A stretch of DNA of 52,669 nucleotides from a virus, in IMG/VR virus record IMGVR_UViG_3300028666_000041, positions 1-52,669 of that record; one strand, written 5' to 3'. Position numbers and translations under genes: made by a program. Positions within the stretch are counted from its first letter, which is position 1. Every line of letters starts with the position of its first letter. The notes under the pieces were generated by a model that worked only from the letters and a program-made list of their open reading frames with translations, was not told the DNA's origin and did not search any database. Shown here piece by piece: positions 9,439-23,499 of this stretch.

Positions 9439-12400
9439 GTGAGTAATTTTCCGTTTCAAATAGATTCAGATGCTGAGTTGCCGCGGGTTGATGGAAATAT
9501 AACCGATCTTGGTGATATTGCCATTAACGCTCTACGTTCAGCTATGTTCGCAGTGGAATCTAATATCGGTATTAATGCTCAGGGTTCTACTGGATCAATT
9601 GCACAGCGTCTTTCCATCGCGCTCAATCCAGATGGTACGATCAATCCATCAGCCTTAGTTGGTTTAGGGTTAGTTGTATTACCAATAACTGATGCTCAAA
9701 TATCTCCAACTGCTGGAATACACGAATCAAAATTAAGTCTTGTATACTCAACATCATCATTATATACACTAATACTAACATTACAAAACTCAATAGATGT
9801 ACTGAATGGATTCCTAAGTTTAACTGGTGTCAAGTTAGAACCACATATTGATGGAACAGCATATAATCACTTTCTATCAGCTATTCGCGTTGATCAGACA
9901 ACGCCATTCGTAAAAACAAATCCATCCGTATTACCATCTTCCGGAACTAATGTTGTAAGCAGAAATACAACTAATTCAGATCTTTTGGTTGAAGATATTA
10001 GCAATGATTTAGTTGTTCATGAAAAATCCGATGGTAGCGCCAATGTAACGCCAACATCAGGTGGAACGGTTCCACCAACTAATTATGCTCATATGGCTAG
10101 CGGTATTAATGTTGTGTCGAGTAATTTTTCCACGATACCACAATCTAGTCAAGATGTACAATCTATTATAGAATATTTTGATAACTCAAGCTTGTTATTA
10201 CTTGGAAGTCGTGTACAAAATCTATATGCTAACGGTATATCAAGAACTTCTAGGGCATCAAGTTTTCTATCAGATGGATATGGTGAGCCAATTGTTCCGC
10301 CAACGCCAGCGATATCTTATTTTCTAAATGTGCCACCAGGACCAATGGCATCTTCACCAGTTGATAGTTTTACCAATGGTGATGATGTTGTATTGTTTAG
10401 TCCAACAGCGCAACAACTAAGTACATACAATTTTGATGCACAGTTTGCCCAGGTTCAGCCTGGAGATATTTTAACTATAAATTATGGTACCGGAATATCA
10501 TATCAGTTTGTTATTGACTCGGTTAAGGCTAATGTTACTGGAATGGTACGAACTTATGCTGTTAGAATAAATGGCAAAAATCCAATATCAAATGTAAGCG
10601 CGTTAGCAAGAATAGATAAGGCAGTTTTCCATAGAGGAAAATACGGAGTACTGGCTTCAAGCCGCTCTCCAAATTATACTGGCAATTACGAGAGCTTGAT
10701 TGTATCAAATCCAAGATCTGCTGCTGCATTAGGCAATGGATTTAATTCGTCTAAGTTTGACTCTAATCATTATAACTTGTATATATATTTACTACCAACT
10801 GGTGACACTTCTACTATAATTCCATTACCAGCAATAGATGTTACTGGAAATAAAGGTATATCACCAGGTCAATATACATTAGATAATATAGTCAACAATA
10901 TCAACGTTGCGTTTAGGGCGCCTGGATTCAATTATAGATTTGTCGCATTTGAATATAACGGTCAGATCGGTATAATGCTAGCAGATCCTTATAATAACGC
11001 TAGTTTCAGTATATCTGCCGGTACAGTTGATACAAATGGTAATTATACTTCATCATCACTTTCTTCTTTCCCAGATAATGTTGTTGATAATTTCAACAGT
11101 ATTGACCCTCTTGGATTTGGGTTAGGCGGGGCTAATGTTGCAAGTCCACCACCTTCAACAGCGTATTCAACAGTTGCTGCTGCAATGTTCAATCCTACAT
11201 TACTATTCTATCCATTAAAAAGAAACTTCTTCTATACAAATGGAGTAGAACGAGATAGTTTAAGATCAGATCCAACAATACTAAATAATATACAAGATTC
11301 ATTTGGTGATGGTTATTGGTCAGCCACAATATTACCACCACCATATACTAATGTTCTACCAAATAGAGTTGAAGTAGTATATCAAATAAATCTAGATTTG
11401 TCTAATGCAGGACTGGCTGCTGGAAAGACTATTGTTATTCAACCAGCGTTTCCGCTATCTGATCCTAGATTTAATTTTAGAGATTACGGAAGATTCACTA
11501 TAAAGAGTGTTTCGTTTCAAAATTGTTCTACGCCAGCTGCTTATACAAATATTACTGTATATGACGGCGTCCACGGCGCTGGGACATCACCAGCAGCAAC
11601 ATCAAATAACATACCTGTCTTCGTTTATTTTTCAGATGACTCAGTATCATTTGATGCAGAAAATGTTTTTGATTCAACCACAATTAGCCCGTTCAAGAGA
11701 TTTTTTGAAGTATATGTTGATGGCAACGGACATACATTTACACACGAGCGTGCAAGATTTATTAATACTGGATTAGATATAACAAATATCAATTTATATA
11801 GTATATCGCCAAAATTACGAGGTTATACTACAGTTAATAATGATAAAGAAATTAGATTAACGATCAATAATTATGATCAAAATACTGGGGTTTATACTGG
11901 GTTCTTAGGAAGATGGAATCCAATTTCACTATCACTATCTAACCTTGGTCCAACAATCACCGGTAAAAAGGGCGAAGTAATTAGATTCTATGATGAGACA
12001 AATATAGATTATATAGATTTCATTATAGATATAAATCTAGCTCTTACCAGTTTTTCTAATAAAACACTAGATATACAATTGTTCAAGACATTAGAACTTG
12101 ATGAAGAAATTATGTTAATTTCAAGCTGTCAAGTTAATGATATTACAAAACTAGTTTCATATCTAAAAGATGAAAGACAATTTGGAAATGTTAGCGAAGA
12201 ACAATTTACTAGTTCAGCTCTTGATTATATAAGCGCTCCAAATAGATTATTAAATGAAAACGGTATAATAAATGGTTTTGATAATTATGCAGTATCAGGA
12301 AATACTATTTCATTCAATGGTGGTACAGCATTAATAAATGGTAAAATTATTTTCATAAATGAAACTAACATAACTGTTCCAGCAGTTATTGAAGCATTAT

Positions 12401-14352
12401 ATCCAACATTTACAACAACAGTAAATACAATTACTTGGTATGTATGCGCGAACAATAAATCTGAAATAGAACTTATTGCATCAACCGATTACAGTCCATC
12501 ACTTGTTGGAACATATGGCTCGTTGGATCAAAATAGAATATTTTATGTAACTAATCCGGCATCATCTAATACATATCCAGTACGAGGAACTTATTTTAGC
12601 AATCTACTAAGTTATTCCGATGTAGTTCCATTATATGTAATAACAGCGACGGTAACTGGTACTGCAATATCGACTCTATCTATAACTGATGCAAAAAGAT
12701 TTATATCTAATGGGTTTTCTGGTATAACTGATTCTTTCATTCTTAGCACCGAAGGACAGTTTAGAACAATAGATTCAGTTAATTCTTGGATCTCACAATT
12801 CACTAATTTTATATCATACACAAATACTTCTAATAACACAAAAGGAACTAGTGTAAATGTAAGAGGACAATTAACATTTACATCATCGATTTCACTTGGT
12901 TATGCTGCAAAAACAATTTTCAATGGAAATGATGCAATATTAAATTTCGGAACATCAACTGTTTCATTAAGTAATAATATACAGTTTGATAATATGACGA
13001 TCAATGCTGCAAGTTCGACATTGTTGGTTGGTAGCAATATCTCATTTATAAATTGTACTATCAACTTCCCAACAAATACTACAGTATTTGGTAATAATAT
13101 ATCTTTTACAAATTGTACTGTTAACTTCCTACAAAGCTCTATGACATTTGGTACAAATACAGTTTTTACGAACTGCACTGTGTCGATGCCAAATACAACT
13201 ACTACTTTTGGATCTAATTCTACATTTACTGGATGTACCATAGCCACACTAGGAGTGCTAAGCACATTTGGAGCTAATTCAATAATAAGTAATTGTACAA
13301 TCACGACGGTGTCAGGGGCAACGGTTGGTACAACCACATCATTCACTGACTCAACATTGAATATTAGCTCCGCTACTGGTTTAGGTCTAACACTATCAAA
13401 TAATAATAGTTTTACAAATTGCGTTATTAATGTTTTTTGTCCTACTGGTTTCACTATGGCAAATAATAATACATTTCAGTCATGTGTGATTAATTATACT
13501 TATGATGCAACCAGTGATTCAAGTTTTACAATAACAAATCCAGCCAGTCCAACAAAAGCTTGTCTGCTATCAAATATTACATCAAGCGGTTTGGAGAATG
13601 TTGTTATTGATAAATGTATATTCAATTCACCAAATCTAAATAGATTTCAATTCATATCGATGATATATGCCAATTCTCTTAGTTTTGCTGAGAATATAAA
13701 AATCACCAGTAATAAGTTTATAACAACTGCTCCTAATGCGGATGATAAGTTTGCTGTCATTGCAATCGTTGGTCCAAGTGTTGCTCCAACAACAACTACT
13801 GGAACAAGATTGAATAATTGTTTTATAACAGATAATTTCTGTAATAAAAATCAGCTAATAGAAATTGCTCCTACAAATGTAGGTCTTGTTGTATATGATG
13901 CTATTTGTACAACCAATTCGTTCATATCTAATAATACTTGTGGCGCCATCAATATAACTACTAAGCAAGATTTACCTAATTCAGTCCTTCCAAATACTAC
14001 ATATCAAGCTGATAAAATGGGAAGTCTGACAATATCTGGTAATACTTGCAAGTATATTTATACTGGCTATGCAAGTGGTCTGGCATATTCTCTCACTCTA
14101 GATTCGCCAGCCGGATCATTTCCGGCCAATTCTGGCATATTCACCGGAGCATTAATGATAGTAAATAATAACTGTGCATTTATGTATATCTCCACTAGGG
14201 TTTCTGCAACTAACACACATGGCTATGCTCCATTGATTATAAGAAAAAATAATATGAAAGCATATGATATTAATTTTACAACATTTTTTGATGGTGGATT
14301 GCCAAATACTCAACCAGCTGGAATAGTTACAGATACAAGGATAGGTACATAA
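9439..14352 (+). CDS. Giant tail fibre with C-terminal beta-helix
   Basis: 1637 aa from a GTG start with AAGGA 6 nt upstream; the first residues (SNFPFQIDSDAELPRVDGN) are a typical fibre N-terminus. A segment near residue 90 (ITDAQISPTAGIHESKLSL) is the sort seen in phage fibre attachment regions. The centre (residues 250-1130) is a chain of beta-domains without visible catalytic motifs. Residues about 1180-1355 form a regular right-handed beta-helix with 20-residue rungs (F.NCT......FG.N), and less regular N-rich rungs run to the end. The frame stops without an obvious tip domain, and the next ORF begins inside the stop codon with more beta-helix. It is likely to be a trimeric side fibre. 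Confidence 0.72.
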   Translation: MSNFPFQIDSDAELPRVDGNITDLGDIAINALRSAMFAVESNIGINAQGSTGSIAQRLSIALNPDGTINPSALVGLGLVVLPITDAQISPTAGIHESKLSLVYSTSSLYTLILTLQNSIDVLNGFLSLTGVKLEPHIDGTAYNHFLSAIRVDQTTPFVKTNPSVLPSSGTNVVSRNTTNSDLLVEDISNDLVVHEKSDGSANVTPTSGGTVPPTNYAHMASGINVVSSNFSTIPQSSQDVQSIIEYFDNSSLLLLGSRVQNLYANGISRTSRASSFLSDGYGEPIVPPTPAISYFLNVPPGPMASSPVDSFTNGDDVVLFSPTAQQLSTYNFDAQFAQVQPGDILTINYGTGISYQFVIDSVKANVTGMVRTYAVRINGKNPISNVSALARIDKAVFHRGKYGVLASSRSPNYTGNYESLIVSNPRSAAALGNGFNSSKFDSNHYNLYIYLLPTGDTSTIIPLPAIDVTGNKGISPGQYTLDNIVNNINVAFRAPGFNYRFVAFEYNGQIGIMLADPYNNASFSISAGTVDTNGNYTSSSLSSFPDNVVDNFNSIDPLGFGLGGANVASPPPSTAYSTVAAAMFNPTLLFYPLKRNFFYTNGVERDSLRSDPTILNNIQDSFGDGYWSATILPPPYTNVLPNRVEVVYQINLDLSNAGLAAGKTIVIQPAFPLSDPRFNFRDYGRFTIKSVSFQNCSTPAAYTNITVYDGVHGAGTSPAATSNNIPVFVYFSDDSVSFDAENVFDSTTISPFKRFFEVYVDGNGHTFTHERARFINTGLDITNINLYSISPKLRGYTTVNNDKEIRLTINNYDQNTGVYTGFLGRWNPISLSLSNLGPTITGKKGEVIRFYDETNIDYIDFIIDINLALTSFSNKTLDIQLFKTLELDEEIMLISSCQVNDITKLVSYLKDERQFGNVSEEQFTSSALDYISAPNRLLNENGIINGFDNYAVSGNTISFNGGTALINGKIIFINETNITVPAVIEALYPTFTTTVNTITWYVCANNKSEIELIASTDYSPSLVGTYGSLDQNRIFYVTNPASSNTYPVRGTYFSNLLSYSDVVPLYVITATVTGTAISTLSITDAKRFISNGFSGITDSFILSTEGQFRTIDSVNSWISQFTNFISYTNTSNNTKGTSVNVRGQLTFTSSISLGYAAKTIFNGNDAILNFGTSTVSLSNNIQFDNMTINAASSTLLVGSNISFINCTINFPTNTTVFGNNISFTNCTVNFLQSSMTFGTNTVFTNCTVSMPNTTTTFGSNSTFTGCTIATLGVLSTFGANSIISNCTITTVSGATVGTTTSFTDSTLNISSATGLGLTLSNNNSFTNCVINVFCPTGFTMANNNTFQSCVINYTYDATSDSSFTITNPASPTKACLLSNITSSGLENVVIDKCIFNSPNLNRFQFISMIYANSLSFAENIKITSNKFITTAPNADDKFAVIAIVGPSVAPTTTTGTRLNNCFITDNFCNKNQLIEIAPTNVGLVVYDAICTTNSFISNNTCGAINITTKQDLPNSVLPNTTYQADKMGSLTISGNTCKYIYTGYASGLAYSLTLDSPAGSFPANSGIFTGALMIVNNNCAFMYISTRVSATNTHGYAPLIIRKNNMKAYDINFTTFFDGGLPNTQPAGIVTDTRIGT
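12979..13500 (+). repeat. Tandem 60-nt repeats encoding 20-residue beta-helix rungs
   Basis: Eight to nine imperfect units encode rungs of the form [SVT]F.[NG]CT[IV]........FG.N[NST]. The first four full units are exactly 20 residues, and later ones are 19-23. A cysteine recurs at the same place in nearly all units (one has Ser), predicting a ladder of stacked Cys side chains in a parallel beta-helix. The DNA is diverged, so this is an old duplication. Confidence 0.75.
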
Positions 14353-16549: not shown

Positions 16550-19333
16550 ATGGCGAACGTACCGAGCGCACAAAATTCACTTCCTGGCGTAATTACAAAC
16601 GTCGTAACCCAAAGTACTGGCGCATCAGTACCAGGTGGTACTCGTATCGCTTGCATAATTGGTGAGGGAGCCCGTCAGGAAATTATAGTTGCTTCTGCTG
16701 TAGGTGGTGGCAATGATGGATTAGATGGATACTATACATCAGCAACTGGAAGTGATGGAAGACATTTTCTCTTACAAAACTCTCCGATCATTTCACACAG
16801 AGAAAAACTGTACAAAAATGGAGTTTTGCTTCAAGGATTAGAAGAAGCAATAGATCAAAATACATTTCCAAATACATATGATTATAGAATCAATATTGCC
16901 AATGGGCAAATCGAATTACAACGAGCACATTTAGTCAATCAGGGTGGTTCTTTCTATACTAATGGCGTCACTAATGTTGGCATTGGTACAATCAATAATA
17001 TCTCTCTCGTAGATGTTAATGCTCCAAATGAATCTTGGACTATCAAATGTGTTGCGGTACAACGAAATAATCTAAATCAACCAATTGCCGGAACAGCACA
17101 ATTCGTAGCATTCGGTTCTGTATCTGGTAATGTTTTAGATGCAAACGGGAATCCAACAATTTGGGTTGCAAATAATCAAGCTGTTTCAAACAGTATTTTG
17201 ATGTTTTCTATATCAGAAACGACAAATGGTCCAACCACAATATCACCATTCCGTCCAGGTGATTATTTTACTGTTAAAGTTTCAAGCGGTGTTCTAAATA
17301 AAAACGACAGCCTAACTGCCACATACATTGCTGTATCTGATATAAACAGCCCAACATTTTTCACAGCAGTGCAACAAGTAAATACAAAACACGGACTACC
17401 AAGTCTAACAAATACATTGTCTCTTGGTTGCCAATTAGCATTTGCTAATTCGCCGCCTGGCATTATGTGTCTTCAGGCGGCACCTCCTCTTCCACGACGC
17501 GTTTCATATGTGTTAGAAACAAGTTTCCCAGCTACATCTACAAATGTAAATGATTTCGTTCTTCCATTACCATTAGGTGTATCACCAGATCCAAACTCAA
17601 ATATCGATATTTTCGTAACGAATCCTGCCACCGGTGTAGAGAAACAACTTCTTGCAAATAAATTTGAGTTCTTCACTCTCGGTGATGTTGGTCAACCAAC
17701 AGTGTCTCAATTCGTATTTGACAATGCAATGCCACCATCTGGTAATTCATATTCGTATTCAGTAACACAGACAAATGCAACAGTTAATTTTGGTCAAGAC
17801 GGATATATCAATCGCGATCTATTAACTCAAATAAATGCCTTATTTAGTTCGTCAGTTACATTCGACAATACATATGTTGGATTAGAACTATCAGTTATTG
17901 ACGCGGTAAATAATGCTAACGTTGGAACATTTGCAATAGTTGGTGTTGTTGGCGGACAATTACAAATAAGAGCAGAAGCAACTCCACCATTTGCTGATTT
18001 TATTAATGATCCAACCACAACTTTTCAACTTATTGACCCAGTTTTCGGTGAGGTAGTTGTTGGTAGTACAGGTTCTGATGGTGCATTGATTGCAACCCCA
18101 GATACTGCAACTGGTACACTACATAGTGGTGCTGTTAATTTCAATACGTTCAATGTTATAGCCCTCGGACTAAAACTACAAATAACAGCTTCTGCTGATG
18201 CATCAAACGTTGGTATTTACGATATTACATCATATAACTCGGGCTCAAATACACTAACAGTTGCTAAATCATTCGTTAGTGAGCATAGCCTAAAATATGA
18301 AGTAATTGATCCATCACAAACAAGTGATTACTTGGTTTTGAATCATAACGTAGTTCCAAATAACTACTCAGTACGCGTAACATTAGTGGATGTGCAAGAT
18401 GCAACATTCTTCGATGCTGGCTGGGAAAAAGCATTAGCAACATTAGAATCACAAGAACTTGATATAGTAGTTCCGCTTCCATTGCAGACAATATCAGTAA
18501 TATTTGATAATGCAATGAATCATTGTCTAACAATGAGTAATTTGACAAACAAAAAAGAGCGTGTTCTATTTATAGGCGCTATAAACGGATTAACTCCAGA
18601 CAACGTGACAGGCGTTAGCCTTGCCGCTGTTGAAAATATCGGGGTACTCGAAGGTATCCAGGGCGCAACTGTAGCGGATATACTAGCTGGTAATACTGAA
18701 GACTTAGCAAATTATTCCGTATCAGCAGCATACGGTCAAACATTCAGGGTTGCATATTTCTATCCTGATCAGATCGTTGTACAGGTTGGTGGCAGCAATC
18801 AGATTCTTGATGGGTTCTACATTGCAGCTGCAGCCGCTGGTTATACATCAGGTGTATCAAATATCGCCTCGCCACTCACCCATAAGGTGCTAAGCGGATT
18901 CACAATAAACGTAAATAGAATGTTCAGTAATACAGTGCTACAGGCATTAGCTGCTGCTGGTATTGCAACATTGCAACCAGTTGCTGGTGGTGGTCAAGTA
19001 TTGTGGGGTATAACAACCACTCAAAGCGGATTCCCAGAAGAACAGGAACTATCAATTGTATTCATTAGAGATCGAATTGCCAAGGCAATGCGAACTGGGT
19101 TTGATGGATTCATTGGAACTCCAGAAAATCAGGATACACAAGGAACGTTACTTGCTCGTGCAATTGCAATGTTGAGAGGTTTCGTAGGTCAAGGATTGAT
19201 TACAGCTTATACACAACCAACTGTTGTTAGAGATAGCGTTGAACCAAGACAATGGAACATTTCAGTAAAGGTGCAACCCGTCTATCCCATCGACTGGATT
19301 TATATTACAATTGATGTCGGAACAATAGTATAA
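16550..19333 (+). CDS. Contractile tail sheath protein
   Basis: 927 aa, with AAGGA 8 nt before the ATG. The N-terminus (LPGVITN near residue 12, then GGTRIACIIGEG) is the classic sheath start. The C-terminal domain (FDGFIGTPENQ near 851, LLARAIAMLRGFVGQG, then RQWNISVKVQPVYPIDWIYITIDVG) matches the conserved sheath C-terminal fold that interlocks subunits. Sheath proteins polymerise around the tube and contract to drive it into the host. At 927 residues this is larger than many sheaths. Part of the extra length lies at residues 417-587, where two copies of a beta-domain also found in the wedge and fibre proteins are inserted, probably facing outward. The tube gene follows after 36 nt. Confidence 0.92.
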   Translation: MANVPSAQNSLPGVITNVVTQSTGASVPGGTRIACIIGEGARQEIIVASAVGGGNDGLDGYYTSATGSDGRHFLLQNSPIISHREKLYKNGVLLQGLEEAIDQNTFPNTYDYRINIANGQIELQRAHLVNQGGSFYTNGVTNVGIGTINNISLVDVNAPNESWTIKCVAVQRNNLNQPIAGTAQFVAFGSVSGNVLDANGNPTIWVANNQAVSNSILMFSISETTNGPTTISPFRPGDYFTVKVSSGVLNKNDSLTATYIAVSDINSPTFFTAVQQVNTKHGLPSLTNTLSLGCQLAFANSPPGIMCLQAAPPLPRRVSYVLETSFPATSTNVNDFVLPLPLGVSPDPNSNIDIFVTNPATGVEKQLLANKFEFFTLGDVGQPTVSQFVFDNAMPPSGNSYSYSVTQTNATVNFGQDGYINRDLLTQINALFSSSVTFDNTYVGLELSVIDAVNNANVGTFAIVGVVGGQLQIRAEATPPFADFINDPTTTFQLIDPVFGEVVVGSTGSDGALIATPDTATGTLHSGAVNFNTFNVIALGLKLQITASADASNVGIYDITSYNSGSNTLTVAKSFVSEHSLKYEVIDPSQTSDYLVLNHNVVPNNYSVRVTLVDVQDATFFDAGWEKALATLESQELDIVVPLPLQTISVIFDNAMNHCLTMSNLTNKKERVLFIGAINGLTPDNVTGVSLAAVENIGVLEGIQGATVADILAGNTEDLANYSVSAAYGQTFRVAYFYPDQIVVQVGGSNQILDGFYIAAAAAGYTSGVSNIASPLTHKVLSGFTINVNRMFSNTVLQALAAAGIATLQPVAGGGQVLWGITTTQSGFPEEQELSIVFIRDRIAKAMRTGFDGFIGTPENQDTQGTLLARAIAMLRGFVGQGLITAYTQPTVVRDSVEPRQWNISVKVQPVYPIDWIYITIDVGTIV

Positions 19334-19369: not shown

Positions 19370-19993
19370 ATGCCATCTATCGCACCAAATACAGGAAGTA
19401 TAATTGAACGTCCTGATGGAACTGACGCTACATTTACACAACTATCAACTAACATAGTAATTCGCGTTGGTATAACTGCTGTCGGTGCTATACAGACTAT
19501 CAATTTTACTGAACAGCGAACCATTACAATGGTTGATGAAGTTGGAACTGATGGTCACATTGACTCCTCCCCAACAGCTAGCACCAACATAACTGGTTCT
19601 TGCACTAGGATTAGGTTTGATCGTGCTCGTGTAACAGAGGCATTTAGTCGTGGGTTCTTGCATATACACGCACAGCGTATTCCGTTTGATATTGATATTT
19701 ATGACATAGCAAGTGGTGATGGCAGTACTGCAATAATTACAACAGTAAAAAACGTATGGTTCAACAATTTACAGTTTTCATATTCTGCTACTAACTGGTT
19801 AATAAGTGAAGAAGCTGGTTTCGCAGCAGAAGGTATCTATTCTACTCTCAATGGTGGTAATGCTGCTACTGGTGGTCTATTAGGTTCTAATATAATGCAG
19901 CTCAATTCAATTGAGCGACGTGCCGATGTTGGTCAATTGCTTGGCTCAATGGATTCACCTGGTCTTATTACAGATTATTTCTCAAACGTATAA
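19370..19993 (+). CDS. Tail tube protein
   Basis: 207 aa, with a strong TAGGAG ribosome binding site. Directly after the sheath gene, it has the size and beta-rich character of contractile-tail tube subunits (T4 gp19-like). Notable segments are FTEQRTITMVDEVGTDGHID near residue 50, IDIYDIAS near 112, and a C-terminal helix-strand unit (GLLGSNIMQLNSIERRADVGQLLGS). Tube subunits stack as hexameric rings around the tape measure and form the DNA channel. It contains no Asp-Gly-Tyr motif, unlike the sheath. A hairpin follows the stop, as expected for one of the most abundant virion products. Confidence 0.82.
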   Translation: MPSIAPNTGSIIERPDGTDATFTQLSTNIVIRVGITAVGAIQTINFTEQRTITMVDEVGTDGHIDSSPTASTNITGSCTRIRFDRARVTEAFSRGFLHIHAQRIPFDIDIYDIASGDGSTAIITTVKNVWFNNLQFSYSATNWLISEEAGFAAEGIYSTLNGGNAATGGLLGSNIMQLNSIERRADVGQLLGSMDSPGLITDYFSNV

Positions 19994-20092: not shown

Positions 20093-20743
20093 ATGCCAGA
20101 TTTTAATTCACCAAATATTCGTAGAACATCAAATCAACCACCGGCTCAACAAAAACAACAGCCCGCACAGCAATCATTACGTGAGTTCAATGTTGGATTG
20201 CCAGAAGATATGGATACACAACAAACGAACCCTGTTCAACCACAAATGCAGCAAATCTCCCCTGCCGAATATGAAGCAAGAATCAAATCTCTTCGCCAAG
20301 AAAAAGCAGAAGTTCAAAAACATGGTGTAAAAATTACAGATCATGGCAAGCGAAGAATTGAGTTATTAGCAAATATTGGACGGCTCACTCGTGATGTTCA
20401 AATCGGAGATAATGTTTTTTCTATGCGAACGCTCAAATCACAAGAAGCACTAGATGCTACAATGGCTACTCTTGCTGTTGCTAAGTATGACTGGGAAGCA
20501 TCTTTTGAATCAAGAAAACAACAGCTTATTCGCTCTATCTATAAAATAGATGGAGATGATATTAATATCGTTCTTGGAGAAAATACAACGGAATCAAAGT
20601 TAGAACTAATAAACTCATTAGAAGAAGTTGTTGTTAATAGACTGTGGGATGAGTTAGCAGCAATGAAAGAAGAGGCAAAAACTAAATTTGGTATAAACTC
20701 AACTAAAGAAGCCGAGGAGGTAGCAGAAGATTTAAAAAAATAG
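20093..20743 (+). CDS. Tail assembly chaperone (gpG-like)
   Basis: 216 aa, with TAGGAGA 10 nt before the ATG. A proline/glutamine-rich N-terminus (about 70 aa) precedes a helical body (EARIKSLRQEKAEVQK, ALDATMATLAVAKYDWEASF, ESKLELINSLEEVVVNRLWDEL). It lies immediately before the tape measure in the position of lambda gpG. Its last codons contain a -1 slippery heptamer directly before the TAG stop, which is the hallmark of the gpG/gpGT pair. Such chaperones coat the tape measure and recruit tube subunits; the short form is made in excess. The role is inferred from position and frameshift architecture. Confidence 0.82.
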   Translation: MPDFNSPNIRRTSNQPPAQQKQQPAQQSLREFNVGLPEDMDTQQTNPVQPQMQQISPAEYEARIKSLRQEKAEVQKHGVKITDHGKRRIELLANIGRLTRDVQIGDNVFSMRTLKSQEALDATMATLAVAKYDWEASFESRKQQLIRSIYKIDGDDINIVLGENTTESKLELINSLEEVVVNRLWDELAAMKEEAKTKFGINSTKEAEEVAEDLKK

Positions 20744-20777
20744 TAAGGGAACCAGACCACAGATTTCTCTGGTACCT
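20714..20777 (+). promoter_or_regulatory. dnaX-like -1 programmed ribosomal frameshift signal
   Basis: Three elements occur in correct order. A Shine-Dalgarno-like GAGGAGG (20714-20720) lies 13 nt before the slip site. The heptamer A AAA AAA (20734-20740) is in the zero frame directly before the TAG stop at 20741-20743, and an overlapping T TTA AAA lies at 20731-20737. A stem-loop pairs ACCAGA (20751-20756) with TCTGGT (20768-20773), extended past one mismatch by two G-C and one G-U pair, leaving a 6-nt spacer after the slip site. The -1 frame is open through the whole region. Confidence 0.9.
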
Positions 20778-21096
20778 ATGTAAAATGCGTGGCTGCTTCC
20801 CCGATGATCCTCAAATTGAAAATATAGATCCGGTTATGAAAGCTTGGATGTTCTATAATTGGTTAGAAGATTATGCAGATGAAAATAAAATGCTTGAAAA
20901 TCAAGGAATGCTAATAGGTTCATTTTCAAATCCAGAACTAGTACAAAAAATTCTTGGTAAAGATGGACAAACATTTGCATCCAGTGATGAAGAATTCGAA
21001 GAAACATCAAGATTGGTTATGGAAGCAAATAAAAAAGCTGACGAAGAAAAACAAAAAATAAAGAAACGAAAGAGAAAGAGAAAAATCGAAGGATAA
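20740..21096 (+). CDS. Tail assembly chaperone extension (gpT-like), made by -1 frameshift
   Basis: This 118-residue extension is read after a -1 shift and joined to the 216-residue upstream protein, giving a fusion of about 334 aa. The first ATG in this frame (20785) has no ribosome binding site, so separate initiation is unlikely. The extension begins IVREPDHRFLWYLCKM, continues with FPDDPQIENIDPVMKAWMFYNWLEDYAD, and ends in a very basic tail (KKRKRKRKIEG). In lambda and many other phages the T domain binds the major tail protein while the G part binds the tape measure. The stop is 6 nt before the tape measure ATG. Confidence 0.85.
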   Translation: MVREPDHRFLWYLCKMRGCFPDDPQIENIDPVMKAWMFYNWLEDYADENKMLENQGMLIGSFSNPELVQKILGKDGQTFASSDEEFEETSRLVMEANKKADEEKQKIKKRKRKRKIEG

Positions 21097-21102
21097 TTTT
21101 AG

Positions 21103-23499
21103 ATGGCTGCTGATGAACCAAAAATACCACAGGATAAAGATATAGCTAATACCATTGCAGGAATAAATGATATAGGCAATGCTGGCGATGGGCTAACTAG
21201 TATATTTAATGGTTTGAAGAAGAATATTATAGATATTGGAACTGAAGGCGTTAAGCATCTGGGTGATATTGGTAAGTTAACAAAAGAATCCATTGAGTAT
21301 TTTGGATCTCTAGGAGACAAGTTAGGCGATGTAATTAATGCTACAAAAGATATGGGTGATAATTTTAATGATGCTGGTCAAATAGGAGTTGGTGCAATAG
21401 ATGGAGTATCCGAATCTCTTGACCATTTATTAGTTGATATTGGTAGAGCCGCATCTACTGTCTCTTGGGCAAAAATGTTTGAAGGAGCAGATGCTGGCGG
21501 AGCTTCTATTAATGTTGTTTCTGGAAGTCTTACAAAATTAGTTAATACATTTAATGGTATTATTCCTGGCGACGCCCTAAAAGCTATAACTGGGCAATTA
21601 GCTAGTTTAGGAGATCATTTTATTGAAAATGCCGGTCAAGCTGAAAAATTAGAAAATATGTATGTTTCTCTGCAAGGGGCTGCTGGAAATATGGGTGAAT
21701 TATTTGAAAAAGATGGGCGTACATTAGTTGATCTAGCTTCTAAAACAAAAAACTATACCAATCAAGTATTAGCAGTAGCTGGTGCAACTGGTCAAAGTTG
21801 GGAAAATACATTAAAAATGTCTAATGAGTTGAAAAAACTTCCTGGATATTTTGATCAAACGATTAATACCGGTAAGGGCGCAGAATCTCAATTACATGTA
21901 TTACAGTCTACAATGAATTTGATGACCGGGGCAGGAATTAGTCAGATAGAAACTATGAAAATATTGGGAGAAGCCTATAACACACTCGGACAGGCAACAG
22001 GCAAATTAACGAATCAAGCACAAGCTGGTGCTGAATTTTTGGCAGATGTATCAAGCGTTGCAAATAAATTAGGAGTACAGTTTGATCAGGTACTTCCAAG
22101 TATGAATACTATTGCGGAAACATTTAGGTTCATAGGTAATGAATCGGATGAAGGAGCAAAGTTTTTAACAAAGTATACTGATGCATTACGAGAGACAGGA
22201 TTAACTGGTAAAGCATCAATGGAAATTGTTGATGGTATGACTAAATCGATTCATGATATGACAATCGGAACTAAAGCATTTTTGTCATTGCGATCAGGTG
22301 GACCGGGTGGATTACAAGGATCATTTCAAATAGATCAGCTGCTTCGTGAAGGCAAATTAGATCAAGTTGCTCAGATGGCAGAAAAGGCTATGCGCCAACA
22401 ATTCGGTGGAAGGATATATACACAAGCAGAAGCTGCGTCAAGCCCACAAGCAGCTGCTCAATTTATGAGGCAGCGATCACTTTTAAAAAGTGGAGCATTT
22501 GGCATAGGACAAGGTGCTAGTGATGAACAGGCTACAAGACTATTAGAAGCATTAGGCAAAAGAGATTTTGGTGCTATATCAAAAGAACTAAAAACAGGAA
22601 CGGGAGCGGTAGGAGAGGTTAGTGGTCGCGGACAAGCCATAGAAGAAAGAAATAATACAGAACTAAAGAAAATGAATCTTGCTGTCGCTAGAGCTGCGGT
22701 AGCAGCTGAAATTACCGCTGGTATTCAGATGAAACAATTTTTTGGCACAAGCGGTGCGAATAAAGCAGACATATTGACTAATATGGGTAAATCATCAATC
22801 TATTCTAATCAATTTAATTCAATGAGCAAAACTGCTACCACCAAAGAAGAATATCAAAAAGAAGAGGCGATATCTCAAAGACAAACGGTAGAGCAAATAT
22901 ACAAATCTATTGGCGGTATAGTAGATGGTATAGCAAATGCAGGAAATGAAATTAAATCTGGTACCGAACAAACAATAGATGATATTAAAGGGGTACTTGG
23001 TATTGCTAAACAAAATCCAGAAGACAAAGTAATGGACAATACCATTAAACAGCCACATCGCACATTAATGCAACCAGATAAGCCATCACAAAATGTACTT
23101 AAAATTCCAGATACAACAGTTATTTCTGCAAAATATAATCCGCAAGGTTCTTCAAGCAGAATGCCAACGGTAGCGGAGGCAAGTAGAGATCCTAAAATGG
23201 CAGAACAGCGTAAAAGAATGATGCAAGAGTCTCACGACAGAAAATCTAACCTATACACAGATGCAGTCCATAAAGCAGGATACAATCAGCATGCTCCAAC
23301 AACAGCTACCGCAGCAACCAAAGAGGCACTAAAATCACAGGAAGAAACAAAACAGCTTCCGCCACAAAAAGTGATATTAGAAATATCAGCGCCACCAGGG
23401 TTTAATGTCCACAAGAAATCAGGACCAAATAGCATAGAAGTTATGAATGGAGCTGCCGCTGGCACAAACAACGGAAAATCTTCAGATCCTGGATACTAA
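21103..23499 (+). CDS. Tail tape measure protein
   Basis: 798 aa, with AAGGA upstream inside the chaperone end. It is mostly helical and alanine/glycine/lysine-rich, with amphipathic stretches (TKESIEYFGSLGDKLGDV, ASLGDHFIENAGQAEKLENM, LKMSNELKKLPGYFDQTINTGK). The C-terminal 200 residues look disordered and polar. It directly follows the chaperone pair, the usual order. Tape measures line the tube during assembly and set tail length; at about 0.15 nm per helical residue, 798 aa would predict a tail near 120 nm. No peptidase or lysozyme motif was recognised. It has no Asp-Gly-Tyr motif. Confidence 0.85.
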   Translation: MAADEPKIPQDKDIANTIAGINDIGNAGDGLTSIFNGLKKNIIDIGTEGVKHLGDIGKLTKESIEYFGSLGDKLGDVINATKDMGDNFNDAGQIGVGAIDGVSESLDHLLVDIGRAASTVSWAKMFEGADAGGASINVVSGSLTKLVNTFNGIIPGDALKAITGQLASLGDHFIENAGQAEKLENMYVSLQGAAGNMGELFEKDGRTLVDLASKTKNYTNQVLAVAGATGQSWENTLKMSNELKKLPGYFDQTINTGKGAESQLHVLQSTMNLMTGAGISQIETMKILGEAYNTLGQATGKLTNQAQAGAEFLADVSSVANKLGVQFDQVLPSMNTIAETFRFIGNESDEGAKFLTKYTDALRETGLTGKASMEIVDGMTKSIHDMTIGTKAFLSLRSGGPGGLQGSFQIDQLLREGKLDQVAQMAEKAMRQQFGGRIYTQAEAASSPQAAAQFMRQRSLLKSGAFGIGQGASDEQATRLLEALGKRDFGAISKELKTGTGAVGEVSGRGQAIEERNNTELKKMNLAVARAAVAAEITAGIQMKQFFGTSGANKADILTNMGKSSIYSNQFNSMSKTATTKEEYQKEEAISQRQTVEQIYKSIGGIVDGIANAGNEIKSGTEQTIDDIKGVLGIAKQNPEDKVMDNTIKQPHRTLMQPDKPSQNVLKIPDTTVISAKYNPQGSSSRMPTVAEASRDPKMAEQRKRMMQESHDRKSNLYTDAVHKAGYNQHAPTTATAATKEALKSQEETKQLPPQKVILEISAPPGFNVHKKSGPNSIEVMNGAAAGTNNGKSSDPGY

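Follow-up and report, generated by a model that had tools for sequence, protein, structure and literature searches.

The closest described systems are the tail chaperone genes of lambda (G/GT), P2 (E/E+E') and HK97 (gp13/gp14). These loci have the same gene order as the one analysed here, with a -1-frame extension just before the tape measure gene, and their shift also takes place shortly before the first ORF ends. Frameshifts in tail chaperones are commonly cited as seemingly stimulator-free. Upstream Shine-Dalgarno (SD) pairing at the three comparison sites amounts to -2.1 kcal/mol (lambda), -3.9 kcal/mol (P2) and about -1 to -2 kcal/mol (HK97), compared with -12.3 kcal/mol in our locus. All three use other heptamers, and no sequence similarity to the proteins of our locus was detected. 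The gp181/gp182 pair of the 497-kb Bacillus phage G is, like our locus, placed before the tape measure, and its annotation gives a chaperone and a joined frameshift product. The phage G junction differs (AATTAAAAAAC TAG, with a weak SD of -5.3), and the likeness is one of fold only. That different phages use -1, -2 or +1 shifts is already known (PMC5009743).

Results

Layout of the candidate cassette and its gene neighbourhood

In the window, i.e., the entire 52.7-kb virus record that we analysed, two overlapping ORFs sit between the tail tube and tape measure genes, the roles of both flanking genes being assigned from position (Table 1). The SD, the slip site, the stops, the stem and the open -1 frame named in the initial annotation are all present where it had placed them. 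The spacer before the stem, given there as 6 nt, required a correction. The 6-bp stem starts 7 nt after the TAG and 10 nt after the slip site; a distance of 6 nt from the slip site applies to the extended stem.

Table 1. Features of the candidate frameshift cassette and neighbouring genes in the window
Feature	Position	Strand	Details
Internal SD, GAGGAGG	20714..20720	+	13 nt 5' of slip site; anti-SD score -12.3
Slip site A_AAA_AAA	20734..20740	+	phase TTA AAA AAA TAG
T_TTA_AAA overlapping A_AAA_AAA	20731-20737		read from sequence
Tandem zero-frame stops TAG TAA	20741..20746 (TAG 20741-20743, TAA 20744-20746)	+	abut slip site; from sequence
Probable 3' hairpin (initially annotated stem, extended, one A.A mismatch)	20747..20777	+	local fold and excess junction folding in relatives
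ACCAGA/TCTGGT stem arms	20751-20756 / 20768-20773		able to pair
Open -1 frame	20707-21096		first ATG at 20785
G-like tail assembly chaperone ORF, 216 aa, zero frame	20093..20743	+	weak PHROG matches and AlphaFold model
T-like C-terminal extension, -1 frame, 118 aa, IVREPDHRFLW...	20740..21096	+	conserved from first post-slip codon; PHROG matches in some relatives
Putative tape measure gene, 798-aa ORF	21103..23499	+	role inferred from position
Putative tail tube gene, conserved upstream neighbour	19370..19993	+	role inferred from position
Sheath-like gene	16550-19333		phrog_23 tail sheath, E 1.2e-5; Pfam sheath match

The G-like ORF of the window and its relatives gave weak matches to PHROG tail assembly chaperones, and tail-chaperone families of PHROG are matched by part of the extension family. 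A Pfam scan of the N part of the G-like protein returned scattered chance-level matches only. The AlphaFold model of this N part (pLDDT 85) has the HK97 chaperone 2ob9 as its closest PDB fold and nearest solved structure, with a probability of 0.94 but an E of 0.066. Its best named viral model is the phage G chaperone gp181/gp182 (E 1.1e-6). These profile and fold matches fit a tail assembly chaperone, without proving one by themselves. We noticed that phrog_1316, which bears the name RNA polymerase beta subunit, is also matched by 16 of 58 extension proteins (best E 1.6e-6); this name is probably an annotation error for a tail-chaperone-like family.

The putative tube gene sits between the sheath-like gene and the chaperone, and the relatives keep it beside the chaperone. 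Its weak match in PHROG carries the label head protein. Searching PHROG and Pfam, we found no family match for the putative tape measure ORF, and a homologous ORF occupies the same place in the relatives L010-L013. In L013, an extra 279-aa ORF (790-1629), by eye HNH homing endonuclease-like, lies between the sheath and tube genes. Elsewhere in the window, 2.6 tandem copies of a 60-nt unit (13028-13181) lie inside a 1637-aa ORF (9439-14352) and are likely a structural repeat.

Scanning viral contigs with three queries (the chaperone, the -1-frame protein and the tube protein), we extracted 105 distinct related junctions, of which 93 are -1, 12 are +1 and none is in frame. Many of these loci lie on contigs of 200-470 kb, and several on contigs of 400-470 kb. 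The cassette family is one of very large, uncultured, contractile-tailed viruses of bacteria. Performing tblastn with the chaperone and with the tube against 50,697 phage records, we found no relative. The extension profile matched none of the prokaryote genome contigs searched, and an Rfam scan gave no match. Chaperone proteins 100% identical to that of the window are encoded on four other metagenome contigs (L002-L009), so the same or a near-identical phage recurs across samples.

The constrained reading frame switches at an invariant slip site

The slip site is invariant: in all 93 of the -1 loci, a T precedes a run of exactly seven A, always in one phase. Other Lys-Lys pairs in the same ORFs are encoded by AAAAAA in only 35 of 101 cases, which argues that the slip site is selected. 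The zero-frame stop comes one codon later (AAA AAA TCG TAA) in about a fifth of the relatives. The overlapping T_TTA_AAA had also been proposed as a part of the signal. Its codon varies as NTA (CTA, TTA, ATA or GTA), so the heptamer, present only where this codon is TTA, was ruled out as a second slip site.

Before the slip site, the three codon positions of the zero frame have a mean column entropy of 1.08/1.05/1.62; over the first 15 codons past it, those of the -1 frame have 0.63/0.41/1.25. The frame constrained by purifying selection thus switches from zero to -1 at the slip site. Together with the invariant A7, it supports the initial proposal that a -1 frameshift joins the two tail-chaperone ORFs, and comparison of the relatives thus establishes the slip site and the fusion at the level of sequence.

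In 72 of 75 loci, no -1-frame ATG, GTG or TTG occurs before codon +11, and the protein is conserved from codon 0; hence, IVREPDHRFLW would most plausibly be produced only via the shift. The same observation speaks against the idea that the SD serves re-initiation or coupling and that the -1 ORF is started as a separate protein. SDs before gene ends often serve coupling (PMC5009743), and the window does have a -1-frame ATG at 20785. However, this ATG, which the initial annotation had rightly discounted as the start, is located 64 nt past the SD and is absent in L013. We consider a separate start exceedingly unlikely and retain the shift as the source of the extension.

The dnaX-type slip site A_AAA_AAG is absent, A_AAA_AAA being used in 93/93 of the -1 loci. 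AAG is never found there, though it makes up ~31% of the Lys codons in these ORFs, and its absence may bear on the tRNA-Lys set of the hosts; if they had a tRNA-Lys CUU, the choice of A_AAA_AAA over A_AAA_AAG would be accounted for. In E. coli, A_AAA_AAA is reported to be far less shift-prone than A_AAA_AAG (PMC5009743).

The upstream Shine-Dalgarno element is under selection

Among the 93 -1 loci, 51 carry AGGAGG or GGAGG as the SD core, 24 have a core of 4-5 nt, and 18 have none recognisable. The SD is mostly located 13-14 nt before the slip site. Stimulation of -1 shifts is reported for gaps of 9-14 nt (PMC5009743), and the 13 nt of the window are within this range. Using synonymous recodings drawn with each locus's own codon usage as the reference, we found a mean anti-SD pairing of -8.84 kcal/mol for the -1 loci versus -4.11 ± 0.31 kcal/mol for the recodings. 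The best among 500 recoded sets reached -5.09, weaker than the real set, and a similarity-thinned subset gave the same outcome. Pairing beyond all 500 synonymous recodings indicates that selection acts on the RNA. The comparison therefore establishes, from sequence, the SD of the initial annotation as a selected part of the signal, with pairing that exceeds synonymous recodings across 93 + 12 loci. SD strength and 3' folding showed no trade-off (Spearman 0.01). In a literature search with most subscription journals outside its scope, we found no tail-chaperone frameshift reported to have an SD stimulator.

A 3' hairpin is probable at the junction

Locally, the window folds into a 9-bp helix with one A.A mismatch, with -10.4 kcal/mol for 20744-20778. 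In the longer stretch 20744-20804, another pairing, GGGAA-CAG-CCAC/GTGG-CTG-TTCCC, is more stable (-18.5), and, taken alone, the window has an unremarkable 60-nt minimum free energy (MFE; z -0.81). Across the relatives, 48-nt segments starting 0-6 codons past the slip site fold better than synonymous recodings with the ORF's own codon usage as the baseline (mean z -0.70, -0.84 and -0.47; s.e.m. ~0.14). Segments deeper into either ORF stay within ~0.3 of zero. The sole exception away from the junction is the last upstream segment (z -0.72), which holds the SD, and its excess folding is probably a by-product of the G-rich SD. Since the excess is limited to the junction, a 3' hairpin is a probable part of the signal.

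The relatives have two alternative hairpins with a common 5' arm, and lineages use one or the other. Stem I, GARCCNGA/TNTGGTTC, includes the initially annotated stem and forms a helix of at least 5 bp in 43 of 71 sequences; stem II, of the GGAACCTG-ATCA-TAGGTTCC type, occurs in 31 of 71. Shuffling codons within amino acids reproduced these helix counts (43 vs 42.3), and so no covariation beyond codon preference was seen. The compensatory changes that the initial annotation proposed to seek in relatives did not appear in these sequences. Its downstream stem stands in part: excess folding is found at the junction only, but ACCAGA/TCTGGT lacks covariation, and its 5' arm can pair into a different hairpin in many relatives.

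These results raised the question of whether the frameshift is real and the stem a by-product of the sequence coding for the conserved EPDHRFLW. The protein fixes the CC of Pro and the TGG of Trp, the shuffled counts equal the real ones, and two different hairpins occur, with a third pairing as the MFE structure in the window. On the other hand, the junction folds beyond the own-codon-usage expectation (mean z down to -0.84), and deeper ORF segments do not. Codon choice at the junction is also odd, e.g., Pro is encoded by CCG in 58% of cases there versus 22% in the background. We regard a by-product as a serious possibility, somewhat short of an even chance, and keep the hairpin as a probable component of the signal.

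A sister clade is predicted to make the same fusion by a +1 shift

Twelve loci (L101, L113, L114, L136, L138, L140, L142, L143, L146, L147, L152 and L158) have NNN AAA AGY where the others have A7, and their extension lies in the +1 frame. AAA_AGY is present in 12/12 of them, and +1 re-pairing of AAA to AAA would be perfect in 12/12. The -1 and +1 fusions align residue for residue, e.g., VAEDLKK-IVREPDHRF versus VAEAISK-VVKDPDHRF, which indicates that the position of the shift is unchanged and its direction changed. In a maximum-likelihood tree built from the 105 fusion proteins, the +1 loci fall into a single group (support 99/93), and one change accounts for them; on this phylogeny, the +1 shift arose once, by a switch from -1. 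By inspection, we rejected a -2 shift in this clade: the P-site Lys tRNA would be unable to re-pair two bases back.

The initial annotation had pointed to relatives that lose the slip site, keep both ORFs and gain a new start codon as evidence against a frameshift. One clade has indeed lost the slip site with both ORFs kept. Instead of a new start codon, a +1 shift site replaces A7 there, which strengthens the fusion reading.

The SD of the +1 clade is at the same codon, with a mean pairing of -10.43 versus -5.31 ± 0.89 for recodings. It is located ~17 nt from the P-site AAA, versus the 3-nt spacing reported for +1 shifts. The prfB +1 frameshift, an SD-assisted shift with which we compare this clade, differs in its SD, which lies 3 nt from the P-site codon, and in using CTT TGA C where the clade has AAA AGY. 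In the +1 clade, the SD may act as a general element of pausing or tension, or it may be inherited and have a different role. A tentative and rather doubtful idea is that the SD is direction-neutral, the same selected SD codon serving -1 at A_AAA_AAA and, after the switch, +1 at AAA_AGY. If true, this would contradict the rule that the direction is set by the spacing, at 9-14 nt for -1 and at 3 nt for +1. We found no description in the literature of a direction switch within one alignable family with the SD kept.

The two kinds of slip site also bear on transcriptional slippage on A7, in which mRNAs with an extra A would encode the fusion. The run is all A and invariant, and both kinds of slippage are possible at one site. 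However, the run is always exactly seven, while bacterial slippage is usually described at runs of ~9 (PMC5009743). A selected in-frame SD at a fixed distance would have no role in slippage by RNA polymerase, and the 4-A +1 site of the sister clade is unsuited to that enzyme. Slippage during transcription thus appears very improbable to us, and we favour slippage on the ribosome.

Discussion

We propose, with a probability of roughly 0.85, a programmed -1 ribosomal frameshift through which one gene would yield a G-like chaperone and, presumably less often, a GT-like fusion for tail assembly. We prefer this reading because of the invariant A7, the frame switch of selection, the selected SD, the junction folding, the chaperone-like fold and the gene order, and because the same fusion is kept via a +1 shift in one clade. 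Against a -1 cassette stand the 18/93 loci without an SD core, the lack of hairpin covariation, the poor shifting of A_AAA_AAA in E. coli, and a +1 clade whose retained SD lies at a distance for which +1 stimulation is not known.

In the proposed mechanism, the 16S rRNA tail of the translating ribosome would pair with GAGGAGG near the end of the first ORF. With A_AAA_AAA in the P and A sites, the anti-SD pairing could hold or pull back the mRNA, and the stop codons and probably the hairpin ahead may slow forward movement. Both tRNA-Lys would re-pair one base back, and translation would run on through the T-like domain (IVREPDHRF...). The analogy to lambda suggests that G would bind the tape measure and GT would recruit tube subunits.

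Given a selected SD and a probable hairpin in a large clade of very big phages, the chaperone ratio may be set differently there. The switch to +1, with the protein and the SD unchanged, offers matched natural variants for studying anti-SD pairing during elongation. The A7 plus SD signature could aid in annotating the split chaperone gene in huge-phage genomes.

E. coli dnaX is like the cassette of the window in having an upstream SD, an A-run slip site and, in the window probably, a downstream hairpin, all at similar distances. Unlike this cassette, it uses A_AAA_AAG, its shift yields a shorter product, and it is a cellular polymerase gene (PMC5009743). The -1 signals of the IS3 family and other IS elements likewise combine an SD, an A-run and a 3' structure, but in transposase genes and not tail genes; an SD stimulator is present in an estimated 56% of IS elements (PMC5009743). 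The window cassette and dnaX have similar parts and are not homologous. The cassette would have a dnaX-like working, and we do not count it in that family. Tail-chaperone frameshifts and dnaX-type stimulators are already known, and what is new here is an SD-equipped, direction-switching tail-chaperone cassette.
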